Position numbers and translations under genes: made by a program
NCBI GenBank assembly: GCA_947475095.1
Contig: CANJLG010000010.1
Coordinates: forward strand, 1 to 64,000
DNA: 64,000 nt
DNA from: Flavobacteriales bacterium
GTDB lineage: Bacteria > Bacteroidota > Bacteroidia > Flavobacteriales_D > Crocinitomicaceae
Direction of reading: 5' to 3'
Notes under the pieces: generated by a model
The model's input: only the letters and a program-made list of their open reading frames with translations
Databases searched by the model: none
What the model was told of the DNA's origin: nothing
Shown: positions 1 to 14,556 of the stretch, one piece after another
Position numbering within the stretch: the first letter of the stretch is position 1
Layout: the number at the start of each line of letters is the position of its first letter

Positions 1-141
1 AATGAGTTTGTGTTGAAATTCAATGCTATAAAAGTAAAAGAAGGATTCTCCTACAATTCACTTGATAATGAAAAAATGGAAAATGTGGAAAGTTTACGTG
101 AATTAATTCGTGAACACATTGACCCTAATTTTAAGGCGTAA
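1..141 (+). CDS. pseB: C-terminal end of UDP-N-acetylglucosamine 4,6-dehydratase (PseB-like), partial
   Basis: An open frame enters from the left edge and stops 12 bases before the next gene. Its 46 residues include KVKEGFSYNS followed by an amphipathic helix with SLRELI and the ending DPNFKA. This matches the usual C-terminus of inverting 4,6-dehydratases of the PseB/FlaA1 family, where Campylobacter PseB has KVKDGFSYSS. The enzyme carries out the first step from UDP-GlcNAc towards pseudaminic acid in the cytoplasm. The nonulosonate genes directly downstream on the same strand support the call. Only the tail is visible, so the catalytic SDR part cannot be checked. Confidence 0.7.
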   Translation, partial: NEFVLKFNAIKVKEGFSYNSLDNEKMENVESLRELIREHIDPNFKA

Positions 142-153
142 CACCTTTATTTC

Positions 154-1935
154 ATGAACAAATCTCCCTATTATATTATTGAAGTTGCCAATACGCATGG
201 TGGAAACCGTCAATATTTAGACGACCTGATTGCCCAATTCAGTGACCTTTCTGGAAATTTCGGAATAAAATTTCAAGCTTTTTCACCCGACACCATTGCT
301 ACAAAAGACTTTGAATGGTATCCAGTATACCAAGAATTGTACTTTGCTCCCAACGATTGGAAGGAAATTATCAGCGAAGCAAAAAAAAGTAAAGATGTTT
401 GGCTCGATTTATTTGACGCATATGGCGTACAAATTCTCAATGAAAACATTGACAAAATAAAAGGAATAAAATTTCAAAGTTCCGTCTTACAAAATCAAGA
501 AGTTTTTGACCTACTCGCTTCTACCAATTTACAAGAGAAAATAATCATATTAAACATTGCAGCCCAATCCATTGAGGCCATTGAAGCGATAATAGAAAAG
601 GTGAATAATAACTTGAGACCGCAAAAAATAATGTTGGAAATTGGTTTTCAATCCTACCCTACCTTATTAGATGACAGTGGATTGAATAAAATCGCCATCT
701 TAAAAAACCATTTTAAAAACGAAATCGTATTTGCAGACCATACCGAAGGTAAGTCCAACGATGCGCTCACTTTACCATTAATCGCTGTGTTAAATGGCGT
801 TGATGCCATTGAAAAACATGTCATGCTCGACGATCGTGAGACAAAGTACGATCACTTTTCATCCATCACGAAAAAACAATTCGATGAGTTAGTCGCCAAC
901 GTAGATAATTACACTGCCTTAGCCGATAAAGAGTTCATCAATACACGTGAAATTGACTACCTGCATAAAAGTCAAATGAAACCCCTTACAAAAAAACTTT
1001 TAGCTGCTGGAGACTTAATCAGCAGTTCGAGTGACTTAATCTTCAGACGTTCAGGGAAAGATGGTTTAACGTTTAATGAAGTACTCCAACTTCAAGCGGA
1101 GAAGAAAATACTAAGTTCTCCTATTCAAGCGGGTCAAACCATTAATAAATCAGATTTTAAGGAAGCAAAAATTGCAAGCATTATAGCATGCCGATTAAAA
1201 TCATCTCGCTTAAAAGAAAAAGCACTTTTACCCATTGGAAATTTGCCATCGGTAGAATATTGTATAAAAAGTGCCTTGAAATTCAAAGACGTTCACCATA
1301 CCATTCTTGCTAGCTCGACAAATCCTCAAGACGATGAACTGAAAAATCACACCTACCATCCTGATGTTGTTTTCTTTCAAGGAGATCCAGAAGATGTGAT
1401 TGCACGATATTTAAAGATTTGCGATGAAATGGACATCGATGTAATCGTTAGAATCACCGCCGACATGCCATACGTAGATCCGGAAACTTGCCGAATATTG
1501 CTTGCATCTCATTTCGAAAAAGGAGCTGATTATACCACCGGAAAAAGCGCGGCAATAGGCTGCAACCTTGAAATCATTAATGTTTCCGCTCTTCGAAAAA
1601 TAAAAGCCTACTTTACTTCTGCTGATTATTCAGAATACATGACGTGGTATTTTCAAAACAACCCTGAATTTTTCAACTTAAATACCGTTGAATTACCAGT
1701 ACATTTCGTGCGAGATTATCGACTAACATTAGATTATGAAGAAGATTTAATACTCTTTAATAAAATCCATGATCATTTTATAGCCAACGATAAAAAAGAC
1801 TACGAACTAAGTGACATTCTAACATTTTTAGATGCTAATCCTGCCATTGCAGCGATAAATAAAGATTGTCAGTTGAAATACAAAACAGACCAAGCACTTA
1901 TACAGCTACTAAACGAAAAGACCAAGATGAAATGA
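154..1935 (+). CDS. Fusion: nonulosonate synthase (NeuB/PseI-like) plus CMP-nonulosonate cytidylyltransferase (PseF/SpsF-like)
   Basis: This 593-residue protein joins two enzymes usually made separately. Residues about 5-250 form a NeuB-type TIM barrel: EVANTHGGN near the start, IKFQAF, FADHTEG and IEKHV keep the substrate and metal-binding positions. Residues about 270-335 look like the SAF (antifreeze-like) domain. From about residue 338, a nucleotidyltransferase of the SpsF/PseF family begins with IIACRLKSSRLKEKAL, followed by GDPEDVIARY and RITADMPYVDP. Predicted role: condense a 6-carbon amino sugar with phosphoenolpyruvate, then activate the nonulosonic acid as CMP-sugar. The N-terminal domain is clearly more divergent than the second synthase further downstream, so its substrate may differ or it may be partly degenerate. 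The ATG overlaps the following gene by ATGA, which argues for one operon. Confidence 0.85.
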   Translation: MNKSPYYIIEVANTHGGNRQYLDDLIAQFSDLSGNFGIKFQAFSPDTIATKDFEWYPVYQELYFAPNDWKEIISEAKKSKDVWLDLFDAYGVQILNENIDKIKGIKFQSSVLQNQEVFDLLASTNLQEKIIILNIAAQSIEAIEAIIEKVNNNLRPQKIMLEIGFQSYPTLLDDSGLNKIAILKNHFKNEIVFADHTEGKSNDALTLPLIAVLNGVDAIEKHVMLDDRETKYDHFSSITKKQFDELVANVDNYTALADKEFINTREIDYLHKSQMKPLTKKLLAAGDLISSSSDLIFRRSGKDGLTFNEVLQLQAEKKILSSPIQAGQTINKSDFKEAKIASIIACRLKSSRLKEKALLPIGNLPSVEYCIKSALKFKDVHHTILASSTNPQDDELKNHTYHPDVVFFQGDPEDVIARYLKICDEMDIDVIVRITADMPYVDPETCRILLASHFEKGADYTTGKSAAIGCNLEIINVSALRKIKAYFTSADYSEYMTWYFQNNPEFFNLNTVELPVHFVRDYRLTLDYEEDLILFNKIHDHFIANDKKDYELSDILTFLDANPAIAAINKDCQLKYKTDQALIQLLNEKTKMK

Positions 1936-2582
1936 GTAAAAACATATTGTTGTTTACTGATTCCCTTTCTCTTCCCAGGTCACAACCTGAAAACTGCTCC
2001 TTTTCTAATACATGGCCAGAATTATTGCGAAAAAATGGTTATTCCGTTTGTCAAATAGCGATTGGAGGAGCCACATCGACAGAATTACTCAAACAAACTT
2101 TTTATTTTCAATCGCCCAAAAGTGAATTTGACTATGTGATTATCCAAAGCGGCATAGTAGATTGCACACCAAGATTTGCAGGGAAAAACGAATTAAAAGT
2201 AATAAAATCAATTCCATTCTTAGGAAAGTACTTACTTCAAACTTTGAATAAACAGTGGGTCAGGAATCTTCGGCATATTACCTATGTAAAACCTTCGAAG
2301 TTTAAAATGAACATGCAACAATTCATCGACCTATTTCCAACATCAAAGGTGCTATTCTTAAGCATACTTCCTTCAAACAGTGACTATGAGAAAAAAGTCG
2401 GTGGCATCACGAAACGAATAGCGCAATACAATTCCATCTTGCAAGAAACAGGAAGCGTAATTGATTTAAGCGGAATTGAATCAAGTGGAATTATGTCAGA
2501 CTTTCATCACCTAAATGAAAAAGGTCATGCTTATGTATTGCAAAGTATACTTCACAAATTGAATGGACATGGCGAGCTATAA
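1932..2582 (+). CDS. SGNH/GDSL-type hydrolase-like protein in the nonulosonate operon
   Basis: A 216-residue cytoplasmic protein without signal peptide. I start it at the ATG that overlaps the upstream stop as ATGA; the open frame extends further upstream, but that part lies inside the previous gene. Block I is FTDSLSLPR (nucleophile Ser about residue 11), block II has IGGATS, block III is QSGIVDCTPR, and the catalytic Asp and His are in SDFHHLNEKGH (Asp190, His193). These fit the SGNH esterase/acyltransferase fold with degenerate blocks I and III. Enzymes of this type in sugar loci add or remove acyl groups; here acetylation or deacylation of the nonulosonic acid or its precursor is an inference from the neighbours. 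It overlaps the next gene by 20 bases. Confidence 0.65.
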   Translation: MSKNILLFTDSLSLPRSQPENCSFSNTWPELLRKNGYSVCQIAIGGATSTELLKQTFYFQSPKSEFDYVIIQSGIVDCTPRFAGKNELKVIKSIPFLGKYLLQTLNKQWVRNLRHITYVKPSKFKMNMQQFIDLFPTSKVLFLSILPSNSDYEKKVGGITKRIAQYNSILQETGSVIDLSGIESSGIMSDFHHLNEKGHAYVLQSILHKLNGHGEL

Positions 2583-3570
2583 CTGTTTACACAAGCAAGA
2601 AATTACAACGGGAGAATTTGCCATTGTTCCCATTCGATATGAAGATCGTTTGGCAATAATGAAATGGCGAAATGAACAAATGTATCATTTACGGCAAGAA
2701 AAAATACTCACTGAAAACGACCAAGAAGCTTACTTTCAAAACATCATTCATCCCTCATTTAATGAAAAGGCACCAGCCCAAATCTTGTTTTCATTTTTAA
2801 GAAACGAAAAATGCATTGGCTATGGAGGATTAGTTCATATTAATTGGCAAAGCCACCAAGCGGAAGTATCCTTTATCATGGCATCCGAATTAGAAGCCGA
2901 CAATTTTGAAACAAACTGGATCACCTTCCTTCATTTGCTGGAAAAAATAGCCTTTACGGATTTGAATTTGAGTAGCCTATTCACCTATGCCTATGATTTA
3001 CGTCCTCATTTGTACAAAGCCATAGAAAATGTCGGATTTCAGCAGAGCAAACGCTTAGAAAAAGAGCAGCTAATCGAAGGGAAGTTAATAGATGTAGTTA
3101 TTCATACAAAAAAGAATCCCCTCCAACTTCGAGAAGCGACAAAAAATGATGTTGATATTACCTTTCGATGGGCAAGCGATACAAACATCCGTAAATACTC
3201 CTTTCAGCAGGAAGCGATCACCCAAGAAATGCACTATGCTTGGTACAATTCGAAAATAAACGATCCTTCTTGCCTCTACTTACTTTTGGAAAAAGATAGC
3301 GAAGTCATTGGATCCATTCGATATGACATAAACACAGAAAACGAGGCGCTCATTAGTTATTTGATAGACAATAATTACCACGGACATGGTTATGGAAATG
3401 CTATACTATCTTTATCTTTGGGAGTATTAACAGAAAAAAATCCAAGGTTAAAGCAATTAATAGGATTTGTAGTGCCGGAAAATATCGCTTCACGAAAAAT
3501 ATTTGAAAGACAAGGATATTTACTAGATTCGTCTGATCAAAAAAAATTAAAATACATTAAGCAGCTGTAA
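2563..3570 (+). CDS. Tandem GNAT acetyltransferase (PseH-like and PseG-associated GNAT type)
   Basis: The 335 residues contain two GNAT domains of the RimJ/RimL type. Domain 1 (about 17-180) begins FAIVPIRYEDRLAIMKWRN and resembles PseH, the acetyl-CoA-dependent 4-N-acetyltransferase of the pseudaminic pathway. Domain 2 (about 186-330) has LREATKNDVD, the acetyl-CoA loop NNYHGHGYGNA, and VPENIASRKIFERQGY, the pattern commonly seen in GNAT domains attached to PseG-type hydrolases. No PseG hydrolase domain is present here. An alternative ATG lies two codons downstream. The gene overlaps the SGNH gene and is one base from the next synthase, so it is probably co-translated. Which acetyl acceptor each domain uses is not visible. 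Confidence 0.75.
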   Translation: MDMASYNCLHKQEITTGEFAIVPIRYEDRLAIMKWRNEQMYHLRQEKILTENDQEAYFQNIIHPSFNEKAPAQILFSFLRNEKCIGYGGLVHINWQSHQAEVSFIMASELEADNFETNWITFLHLLEKIAFTDLNLSSLFTYAYDLRPHLYKAIENVGFQQSKRLEKEQLIEGKLIDVVIHTKKNPLQLREATKNDVDITFRWASDTNIRKYSFQQEAITQEMHYAWYNSKINDPSCLYLLLEKDSEVIGSIRYDINTENEALISYLIDNNYHGHGYGNAILSLSLGVLTEKNPRLKQLIGFVVPENIASRKIFERQGYLLDSSDQKKLKYIKQL

Positions 3571-3571
3571 T

Positions 3572-4594
3572 ATGGCCAAAAACGAGCACCATGTCTTTGT
3601 AATCGCAGAATTATCCGCCAATCACAACGGAAGTTTAGCAACCGCCATTGAAACAATCCGAGCTGCAAAAAGAGCTGGTGCTGATGCCATTAAATTTCAA
3701 ACCTATACAGCAGACACCCTAACCTTAGATTGCGATGAATCCGATTTCGTGATTAAAGGCGGAACCATTTGGGATGGTAAAAAATTACATGACCTGTACA
3801 AGGAAGCCTACACCCCTTGGGAATGGCACGCACAACTTTTTGAAGTCGCGAAAGAAGAAGGATTAGTTTGTTTTTCTTCCCCCTTTGATAAAAGCGCTGT
3901 AGATTTCCTGGAAACCTTGCACTGTCCTATTTACAAAATTGCTTCCTTTGAAATTACCGACATTCCTTTAATTGAATACGTAGCGAAGCAAGGAAAACCA
4001 ATCATTATTTCAACCGGAATTGCAAGCTATGATGACATTCATTTAGCGGTTGAAACCTGTCGAAAAGTTGGAAATGACAACATCACCTTATTAAAATGTA
4101 CCTCCTCCTACCCTGCTCCAGTTGCAGAGGCTAATTTGGCCATGATGCAACAATTAGCGATCGATTTCAAGGTGAAAATTGGATTATCCGACCATACTTT
4201 AGGTTCTACTGTCCCAGTAATCGCAACGGCATTAGGAGCAAAAGTCATTGAAAAACATTTTATTTTAGACAGATCCATAGGCGGCCCAGACGCCTCCTTT
4301 TCCATGAATGAAATAGAATTCACCGCCATGGTGAAAGCAATACGTGAAGCAGAAGTCGCCGTAGGAACAAGCAGCTATGAATTAAGTCCCAAACAAGTGG
4401 CAGGAAAAGATTTTTCTCGTTCACTCTATGTTGCTGAGGCAATTAATAAAGGAGACATCATTACAGAAGCCACGATAAAAAGCGTTCGTCCAGGTTTTAG
4501 TTTACATCCCAAACACCTACCAGAAATTTTAGGTAAAACAGCGAAACGTGATCTTAAAAAAGGCGAACGAATTAGCTTGAACGACTTCGAGTGA
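3572..4594 (+). CDS. pseI: Pseudaminic acid synthase
   Basis: This 340-residue protein is a full-length NeuB-family synthase. It has VIAELSANHNGS at the start, ADAIKFQTY, FSSPFD, IYKIASFEI, ISTGIAS, LSDHTLGS and IEKHFILDRSIGGPDASFS, the last being typical of PseI rather than NeuB. A C-terminal SAF domain (about 280-340) ends with KKGERISLNDFE. It condenses 6-deoxy-AltdiNAc with phosphoenolpyruvate to give pseudaminic acid. It is the second synthase in the same operon; the other is fused to a cytidylyltransferase upstream. The next DNA downstream is a scar region with mobile-element remnants, so this is probably the operon end. Confidence 0.92.
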   Translation: MAKNEHHVFVIAELSANHNGSLATAIETIRAAKRAGADAIKFQTYTADTLTLDCDESDFVIKGGTIWDGKKLHDLYKEAYTPWEWHAQLFEVAKEEGLVCFSSPFDKSAVDFLETLHCPIYKIASFEITDIPLIEYVAKQGKPIIISTGIASYDDIHLAVETCRKVGNDNITLLKCTSSYPAPVAEANLAMMQQLAIDFKVKIGLSDHTLGSTVPVIATALGAKVIEKHFILDRSIGGPDASFSMNEIEFTAMVKAIREAEVAVGTSSYELSPKQVAGKDFSRSLYVAEAINKGDIITEATIKSVRPGFSLHPKHLPEILGKTAKRDLKKGERISLNDFE

Positions 4595-13587: not shown

Positions 13588-14556
13588 ATGCAAATTTTAG
13601 TAAGCGGAGGAGCAGGTTTTATCGGATCAAATATGTGCGACGCACTTTTAGCACTTCATCATAAAGTCATTTGCTTAGATAATTTTTTAACCGGTAAAAA
13701 ATCAAACGTATCTGAAGCCTTAAACCATCCTAATTTTTCACTCATTGAGGGAGACATCAGAGATCTTCAAACTTGTGAATTGGCGGTGAAGGATTGTGAT
13801 CTCGTACTGCATTTAGCGGCTTTAGGCTCTGTTCCAAGATCAATCAACGATCCCATTACAACGAACGATATTAACATTAACGGACTTTTAAACATGCTCA
13901 CTGCAACAAAAAATGCAGGAATAAAGCGTTTTGTCTTTGCCTCTAGTAGTTCCACGTATGGTGATTCTGCCACCCTGCCAAAAATTGAGGATCAAATTGG
14001 TCGACCACTTTCTCCGTATGCAGTTACAAAATATGTAGGTGAATTATATGCCGATGTTTTTGCAAAAAATTATGGAATAGAATACATTGGCTTACGCTAT
14101 TTTAATGTGTTTGGAAGAAGACAAGACCCACAAGGCGCCTATGCAGCGGTTATTCCGAAATTTATAAGCCAACTATTGAATCATGAAACACCAATTATCA
14201 ATGGTGATGGTTCCTTTTCACGGGATTTTACCTATATTGATAATGTGGTGGAACTAAATATTCAAGCATTACTAACCCAGAACAAAAGCGCTATTAACCA
14301 AATCTATAATGTAGCCTGTGGTGAAGCGACCAGCTTAAATTCCTTGTTCACTATTCTTCGGGATGAAATGGGATTGCTAGACCAAGGCGTGAAAGCCATT
14401 GAACCAATCTACGAAAAGATTAGAGTTGGAGACATCCCACATTCCCTTGCTTCCATAGAAAAAGCCAAGCAATTACTACATTATACACCAGAAATTTCTG
14501 TAGAAGAAGGAATTAAAAGAACGGTTGCATGGTATATAAAGGATAGCAAGAAGTAA
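13588..14556 (+). CDS. NAD-dependent epimerase, UDP-GlcNAc/UDP-Glc 4-epimerase (WbpP-like)
   Basis: The 322-residue extended SDR enzyme starts with the Rossmann motif VSGGAGFIGSN, has LHLAALGSVPRS, the catalytic Ser triplet FASSSSTYG and the YxxxK pair in SPYAVTKYVGE. The stretch FGRRQDPQGAYAAVIPKF is characteristic of UDP-N-acetylhexosamine 4-epimerases of the WbpP/TviC/Gne group. It interconverts C4 epimers of UDP-activated sugars for surface polysaccharides. It is not part of the nonulosonate operon. Substrate preference (GlcNAc versus Glc or uronic acid) cannot be settled from motifs alone. Confidence 0.85.
   Translation: MQILVSGGAGFIGSNMCDALLALHHKVICLDNFLTGKKSNVSEALNHPNFSLIEGDIRDLQTCELAVKDCDLVLHLAALGSVPRSINDPITTNDININGLLNMLTATKNAGIKRFVFASSSSTYGDSATLPKIEDQIGRPLSPYAVTKYVGELYADVFAKNYGIEYIGLRYFNVFGRRQDPQGAYAAVIPKFISQLLNHETPIINGDGSFSRDFTYIDNVVELNIQALLTQNKSAINQIYNVACGEATSLNSLFTILRDEMGLLDQGVKAIEPIYEKIRVGDIPHSLASIEKAKQLLHYTPEISVEEGIKRTVAWYIKDSKK

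Follow-up and report, generated by a model that had tools for sequence, protein, structure and literature searches.

A NeuB-like barrel fused to an SpsF-type cytidylyltransferase in pseudaminic-type gene clusters: a putative CMP-nonulosonate synthetase that probably makes no sugar from PEP

What is the function of a protein that joins a NeuB-type barrel to a cytidylyltransferase, when a canonical pseudaminic acid synthase is encoded a short distance downstream? The question is raised by the beginning of the window, the whole 64,000-nucleotide stretch of Flavobacteriales DNA analysed here (contig CANJLG010000010.1), in which the following features were read; NeuB* designates the NeuB-like N-terminal half of the fusion.

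1..141, + strand: C-terminal part of the inverting UDP-GlcNAc 4,6-dehydratase PseB, whose gene is cut by the start of the contig
154..1935, + strand: NeuB*-cytidylyltransferase fusion, 593 aa, single uninterrupted frame
154..927, + strand: NeuB*-type TIM barrel, aa 1-258 of the fusion (Pfam NeuB, residue counts, structural match)
979..1161, + strand: SAF-like (antifreeze-type) domain, aa ~276-336 (model alignment; R299 corresponds to Arg314 of NmNeuB)
1162..1935, + strand: SpsF-type cytidylyltransferase domain, aa 337-593 (Pfam CTP_transf_3, invariant motifs, 6oew match)
1932..2582, + strand: SGNH/GDSL-like hydrolase, its start overlapping the fusion stop (ATGA)
2563..3570, + strand: tandem GNAT acetyltransferase with a PseH-like second half (Pfam Acetyltransf_3 and Acetyltransf_4)
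3572..4594, + strand: canonical pseudaminic acid synthase PseI (TIGR03586, 506.1 bits, cut-off 340.25; canonical residues)

Gene order in the window is PseB, fusion, SGNH-like hydrolase, tandem GNAT, and PseI, with PseI lying 1.6 kb downstream of the fusion. Translation of bases 1-141 is identical to the end of a 336-aa PseB homologue in locus L038, whose genome is 95% identical to the window across the first 4.6 kb. Judged by its sequence, the synthase at 3572-4594 is likely to be the PEP-condensing enzyme of the locus; with PseI present, the condensation step is therefore already covered. The source genome (2.56 Mb in 67 contigs, 98.7% complete) contains a single match to the PseF model, located on another contig and reaching 37.9 bits (cut-off 205.7), and there appears to be no evident candidate for the CMP step of the locus besides the fusion.

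The SGNH/GDSL-like protein matches Pfam Lipase_GDSL_2 with an E value of 4.7e-5 and 24.4 bits, below the cut-off of 32.9, and homologues lie close to the fusion in a number of loci. A fused esterase domain of the SGNH/GDSL kind occurs on some NeuA enzymes; by analogy, the protein at 1932-2582 may be an O-acetylesterase of the sugar. The second half of the tandem GNAT protein scores 52.9 bits against the PseH model TIGR03585 (cut-off 93.1), and in locus L022, a shorter GNAT protein and a formyltransferase occupy the place of the tandem GNAT.

The original prediction described a NeuB/PseI-type barrel, an apparent SAF domain, and an SpsF/PseF-type nucleotidyltransferase in one 593-residue frame, and this architecture was borne out: the ORF is uninterrupted, and 39 intact single frames of the same kind were found elsewhere. 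A frame-error artefact was considered and rejected, since 39/44 related loci are intact single frames and the fusion is full-length in 5/59 relatives. In a profile search, Pfam NeuB matches aa 38-255 (72.3 bits, cut-off 22.1) and CTP_transf_3 matches aa 342-527 (74.3 bits, cut-off 22.6), while the SAF domain has no Pfam match in the 593-aa protein. An AlphaFold2 model built from 33 aligned fusions (pLDDT 91.1, pTM 0.72) aligns through residues 1-336 with Neisseria meningitidis NeuB (NmNeuB) chains to residue 349, SAF domain included (4ipj: Z 28.8, rmsd 3.3, 320 aligned); hence, a SAF-like domain to which Pfam is blind is present, complete with an equivalent of Arg314. For residues 337-576 of the model, the structural match is 6oew, a cytidylyltransferase from Leptospira (Z 27.3, rmsd 2.5, 234 aligned). 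Twelve cytidylyltransferase residues are invariant in 33/33 aligned fusions (R347, S350, R352, K356, R433, T435, D437, P439, R523, T525, D527, and D531), and the predicted nucleotidyltransferase role of the C-terminal half is thus supported by profile, motifs, and structure. This domain is of the SpsF type; it is not PseF by sequence, and the PseF model TIGR03584 is absent from the NCBIfam matches of the fusion at E 0.001. Profile searching, the check proposed for the prediction, therefore gave a divided answer: both halves exceed their Pfam cut-offs, but the SAF domain is missed, and the NeuB half stays far below the curated cut-offs for NeuB_NnaB (72.2 bits, cut-off 399.65) and for PseI (TIGR03586, 68.6 bits, cut-off 340.25).

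NmNeuB positions (counted on the 1xuu chain) were mapped via PseI onto 40 fusions and 40 canonical synthases. The fusions, which include several near copies, comprise the window and 39 of the 44 loci, leaving out three fragments (L071, L076, and L079, the last holding only the C-terminal part of the fusion) and two split loci (L080, L081); the canonical rows are PseI matches of >150 bits and <420 aa. Kept in 40/40 fusions are E25, H30, K53, Q55, K129, Y186, H215, E234, H236, D247, and R314 in NmNeuB numbering, as well as F112. In fusion numbering, the metal and sugar residues kept are E10, H15, K39, Q41, K106, Y168, H196, E220, H222, and D233, with the conservation of D233 perhaps inflated because the N-terminal scan pattern covers it. 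Replaced in 40/40 are T110 (D), G131 (Q), E134 (V/I), S154 (N), T155 (I/V), C182 (G), N184 (Q), and S213 (A); the PEP-pocket and nearby positions concerned are D85, Q108, V111, N134, G164, Q166, and A194 of the fusion. Position 132 varies: 17 fusions keep Ser, and the other 23 have Ala, Val, or Pro there. Canonical synthases, by comparison, carry Ser/Thr at 110, an acid at 134, Cys at 182, Ser/Thr at 184, and Ser at 213, each in 40/40. E134, H236, and the STG stretch at 154-156 have specific roles in NeuB, H236 as a metal ligand.

According to PMC7371886, positions 110, 129, 131, 132, 182, and 184 lie around PEP. Of the 13 catalytic-site residues listed in PMC6795526, eight are kept in 40/40 fusions (E25, Q55, F112, K129, Y186, H215, E234, R314) and three are replaced in 40/40 (T110, N184, S213), N74 and F288 being unscored. 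The Gly/Phe specificity position, numbered 132 in PMC7371886 and 133 on the 1xuu chain, is Ser in 40/40 fusions. The prediction that conserved metal and active-site motifs remain in both halves is thus right about the C-terminal half and, in the N-terminal half, about the metal and sugar residues, but wrong about most of the PEP pocket there; catalytic residues divide along the same line on alignment, with most PEP-pocket positions and position 134 replaced in 40/40. Such a pattern would be expected of a barrel that binds a sugar product and a metal, but no longer the PEP phosphate. Residue loss was read from an alignment at ~22% identity, and at this level it does not prove loss of activity; because K129 is kept in 40/40, some anion or carbonyl binding on its side may remain.

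The same fusion was sought in other genomes, as had been proposed, and proved widespread. It is full-length in 5/59 relatives searched, with one more represented by a piece at a contig end, and a scan of one genome per species using two peptide patterns, one per fusion half, returned 44 loci: 39 intact single frames, two split, and three cut by contig ends. Within Bacteroidota, many carriers are Flavobacteriales, and the genera represented in the phylum include Flavobacterium, Gillisia, Mucilaginibacter, and Adhaeribacter. Firmicutes (Geosporobacter, Anaerosolibacter, Anaerobacillus, and Schinkia), Proteobacteria (Pusillimonas and Castellaniella), and metagenome-assembled genomes under names such as Brocadia and Ignavibacteriae carry it as well, and the architecture is frequent enough to be regarded as a family. 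In the two split loci, L080 and L081, the halves are encoded by two intact genes, each with start and stop codons of its own, and these look like later splits of the fusion, because they nest within the fusion clade of the NeuB tree. Schinkia azotoformans encodes a triple fusion of NeuB*, cytidylyltransferase, and aldo-keto reductase (L068:9971-12637, 888 aa). Carriage by plasmids or phage was set aside: only 1/29 plasmid records with a match covers >80% of the query, at 20% identity (Azospirillum), and the single phage match covers the C-terminal half only. The literature searches, with subscription journals and databases such as InterPro outside their scope, found neither a description of a NeuB-cytidylyltransferase fusion nor biochemistry for this family.

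The company kept by the fusion is that of a pseudaminic-type pathway. A PseB- or PseI-like neighbour is present in 43/44 loci, the one without either (L071) being a 4-kb piece; a PseI-like synthase (>=150 bits) lies within the fetched locus in 38/44 and a PseB-like gene (>180 bits) in 37/44. Of the six loci without PseI, five have <=2.5 kb after the fusion, and L072 has PseI ~15 kb on. The frame before the fusion, where there is one (42 loci), is PseC in 22, PseB in five, PseI in two, and another gene in 13. In G012, a relative without the fusion, the row runs PseB, PseC, one more gene, PseF, tandem GNAT, and PseI; this PseF is bona fide (273 bits, cut-off 205.7), and the fusion sits in the region that it holds in G012.

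Profile counts across 41 fusion genomes, drawn from 34 of the 44 loci and seven further genomes, found PseI over its cut-off in 37 and PseF in one (Gillisia, L075). Four fusion genomes are without PseI over cut-off: in three of them (G001, G063, G092), a contig end lies close to the fusion; in the fourth (G085/L069), a different NeuB adjoins it. Among 199 genomes of the order, the source genome included, PseI exceeds its cut-off in 40; PseF is present in 21, of which 19 are among those 40, and the full-length fusion in nine, all among the 40. No genome of the 199 has both fusion and PseF (hypergeometric p 0.0011, uncorrected for relatedness), an exclusion that is weaker than it appears, because 8/9 fusion genomes come from one genus. 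Twelve of the 40 PseI genomes have neither PseF nor fusion; ten were inspected, and in eight of the ten the region fetched encodes an SpsF-like cytidylyltransferase.

NeuB* also occurs unfused. In clusters of the order, NeuB paralogs adjoin SpsF-like cytidylyltransferases and a canonical synthase (L082, L083, L086, L101); all four share a GFQ stretch at 182-184 and S213A and have no acid at 134. Two further paralogs with GFQ or GVQ (L084, L088) keep Asp at 134, and L084 keeps Ser213. K129 is lost in 4/6 unfused paralogs (L082, L083, L086, L101), and Met replaces Arg314 in L086 and L101; since the residues are not uniform at K129, Arg314, and Ser213, the unfused paralogs need not all share one function. 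G057 and G039 encode a different fusion, in which NeuB extends to residue 246 and the cytidylyltransferase begins at residue 295; it keeps Asp at 134 and has Glu for S154 and Ala for S213.

A NeuB tree of 53 rows has a supported branch (99/95) that parts all 20 canonical synthases, together with two odd paralogs, from every NeuB*, whether fused, split, or unfused; support for the fusion clade is 100/100. In a cytidylyltransferase tree of 43 rows, 28 NeuB*-paired domains form one group (92/90), separate from the PseF rows; two of the 21 fusions chosen for this tree (L056, L073) were missed by the motif search and are absent. The cytidylyltransferase of L085, a locus with an odd NeuB paralog, also belongs to the 92/90 group. 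An exception is L088, in which the nearby cytidylyltransferase lies in the PseF branch, as does that near the odd paralog of L089. The two trees broadly match. On these trees, the pairing of NeuB* and cytidylyltransferase seems older than the fusion. Two odd paralogs may be noted separately. That of L089 (2846-3913) adjoins a PseF-like gene, and both of its metal histidines align with Gln and Arg; it is perhaps a further, degenerate NeuB partner, though its branch is long and its alignment unsure. A second, in L085 (6410-7429), lies between PseC and the cytidylyltransferase gene and has K53 and K129 replaced with the two metal histidines kept.

Selection on the two halves was compared in six close pairs among the window, L038, L039, and L040 and in the more distant pair L046/L062. 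In the close pairs, dN/dS is 0.04-0.10 for the N-terminal half, 0.05-0.10 for the C-terminal half, and 0.04-0.06 for PseI; it is 0.07-0.18 for the SGNH gene and 0.18-0.31 for the GNAT protein, the tandem GNAT (2563-3570) thus exceeding the fusion and PseI several times over. For L046/L062, dN/dS is 0.16 in the N-terminal half and 0.12 in the C-terminal half, and dN is 0.14 versus 0.05. The N-terminal half is therefore constrained, yet changes somewhat faster than the C-terminal half over longer distances. What the computation itself shows is thus the architecture, the co-occurrence pattern, the replaced residues, the purifying selection, and a pairing of NeuB* with cytidylyltransferases that extends beyond the fusion.

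The reading we prefer, with a probability of roughly 60%, is that the fusion acts as a CMP-nonulosonate synthetase and that its NeuB-type barrel has been repurposed and does not make sugar from PEP. The C-terminal half would do the job of PseF, converting CTP and a nonulosonate to CMP-nonulosonate, and the nonulosonate would be made by the separate PseI next door. NeuB* would be a NeuB-family paralog that has kept the metal site and the sugar-side residues and lost most of the phosphate/PEP side together with acidic 134; because of this division, it most likely binds the finished nonulosonate (or a six-carbon precursor) instead of condensing PEP, and would present, hold, or modify the sugar for the attached cytidylyltransferase. 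CMP transfer, loss of PEP condensation, and sugar binding by the fusion are what we infer. Two cases sit awkwardly with the preferred reading: the Gillisia fusion genome (L075) also has PseF over its cut-off, and L069/G085 lacks PseI over its cut-off, with a different NeuB beside the fusion. An annotation scheme that counts NeuB and NeuA/PseF homologues would score NeuB* as a synthase, although it probably makes no sugar, and would leave the true CMP step hidden behind it; if NeuB* is a binding domain, it would offer a natural example of tethered free-sugar handling.

Known systems resemble the fusion in parts. It has the fold of PseI/NeuB (PF03102, TIGR03586, TIGR03569; 8h2c, 1xuu), barrel and SAF domain alike, and keeps their metal histidines, the residues on the sugar side, and the arginine of the SAF domain, but differs in the replacement of most PEP-pocket positions and acidic 134, in scores far below the family cut-offs, in carrying a cytidylyltransferase, and in its place outside the canonical synthases in the tree. 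With the SpsF-type cytidylyltransferase of the CMP-legionaminic acid step in Bacillus subtilis (and with 6oew), it has in common the C-terminal domain, its motifs, and the predicted reaction, although here the domain is attached to NeuB* and its gene lies in a cluster of pseudaminic type. PseF (TIGR03584) matches it in gene-order region and predicted step, whereas the C-terminal half belongs to a different cytidylyltransferase branch. Among published proteins, Vibrio sp. B9-25K2 likewise has an SpsF-kind cytidylyltransferase, assigned by homology to the CMP step, with an auxiliary domain, encoded after PseC in a cluster with no NeuA homologue, as here; its partner, however, is an aldo-keto reductase, and the L068 protein carries both partners (PMC7371886). 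A Leptospira NulO synthase with a C-terminal phosphatase-like domain is also a NulO synthase fusion, but the second domain differs, and it has no cytidylyltransferase (PMC3438082). SpsF-like genes of Clostridium pseudaminic clusters are assigned as pseF by homology in PMC13317340; a B. subtilis spsF mutant, according to PMC7439481, still made legionaminic acid with none on the spore, and complementation failed. By analogy, the published SpsF cases support a CMP role for the C-terminal half and leave room for sugar-tailoring partners.

The original prediction made the N-terminal half the synthase of the pathway, with the free sugar passing directly to the other site. Against that role stand the canonical PseI 1.6 kb downstream (506 bits), PseI over its cut-off in 37/41 fusion genomes, and the replacement of T110, G131, C182, N184, S213, and E134 in 40/40. 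A broader version, in which a truly bifunctional protein condenses PEP with a (second) aldose and passes the product to its C-terminal half while PseI serves another sugar, draws on a complete NeuB fold under purifying selection and on metal and sugar residues, Lys129, and SAF arginine kept in 40/40; it is nevertheless demoted to a quite improbable reading because PseI is nearby and the PEP pocket is mostly replaced, with an Asp where Ser/Thr 110 lines PEP and with 134 changed in 40/40. PseI accompanies most fusions (38/44 loci, 37/41 genomes), and fused and unfused NeuB* alike fall outside the canonical synthases in the 53-row tree. A functionless N-terminal half in the course of decay is scarcely credible: its low match to the NeuB/PseI models and the L046/L062 dN (0.14 against 0.05) would fit, but the half is not decaying, since purifying selection acts on it (six close pairs with dN/dS of 0.04-0.10), 11 metal- and sugar-side positions are fixed in 40/40, distribution is wide, and two split loci keep it as a separate intact gene.

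A less likely reading takes NeuB* for a novel metal-dependent enzyme with the nonulosonate as its substrate, such as an epimerase or isomerase that would convert the sugar to an isomer of pseudaminic acid ahead of CMP transfer; it might then be an undescribed NeuB branch that has given up PEP condensation, for example, a C-epimerase on the finished nonulosonate, hard-wired to an SpsF-type synthetase, and the clusters would make a pseudaminic acid isomer rather than Pse5Ac7Ac. New polar residues fixed in 40/40 (D85, Q108, N134, Q166) point this way, as does the third, aldo-keto reductase domain of the Schinkia fusion (L068), although such a reductase was seen in only one fusion locus (not every neighbour was classified). 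NeuB dimers are domain-swapped, and an unlikely proposal makes NeuB* a scaffold, in which domain-swapped pairing with PseI holds the cytidylyltransferase by the real synthase for channelling between two proteins. The modelled SAF-like domain, an Arg314 equivalent in 40/40, and a synthase partner encoded nearby in 38/44 loci agree with such a scaffold, for which the conserved metal site and sugar pocket of NeuB* would nonetheless be needless. For a nonulosonate-modifying NeuB*, the Vibrio B9-25K2 strain again provides a parallel (PMC7371886): the organism with the SpsF-aldo-keto reductase fusion makes a sugar of PseAc2 mass that differs in retention time and MS/MS from the Moritella viscosa sugar and is suspected to be an epimer or to have its N-acetyl groups placed elsewhere, but no NeuB-type domain is mentioned there for the Vibrio protein.

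Other steps of the pathway also depart from the standard set. A profile search found no PseG over its cut-off in the source genome (G000) or in G021, G007, G060, and G012, and the best PseC-like aminotransferase of the source genome, on another contig, reaches 276.9 bits (cut-off 423.5); two pathway steps (PseG and PseC) are thus without a standard gene there. NeuB* as a substitute for missing PseG was considered and rejected, since G049, G069, and G084 have both PseG over its cut-off and the fusion, and G012 has neither. Further into the window, positions 13588-14556 encode a nucleotide-sugar epimerase that scores 378 bits against the model for TviC of Vi polysaccharide (cut-off 760), which it resembles, and homologues of this epimerase, at ~66% identity, lie near NeuB genes of four relatives (L033, L034, L036, L037).
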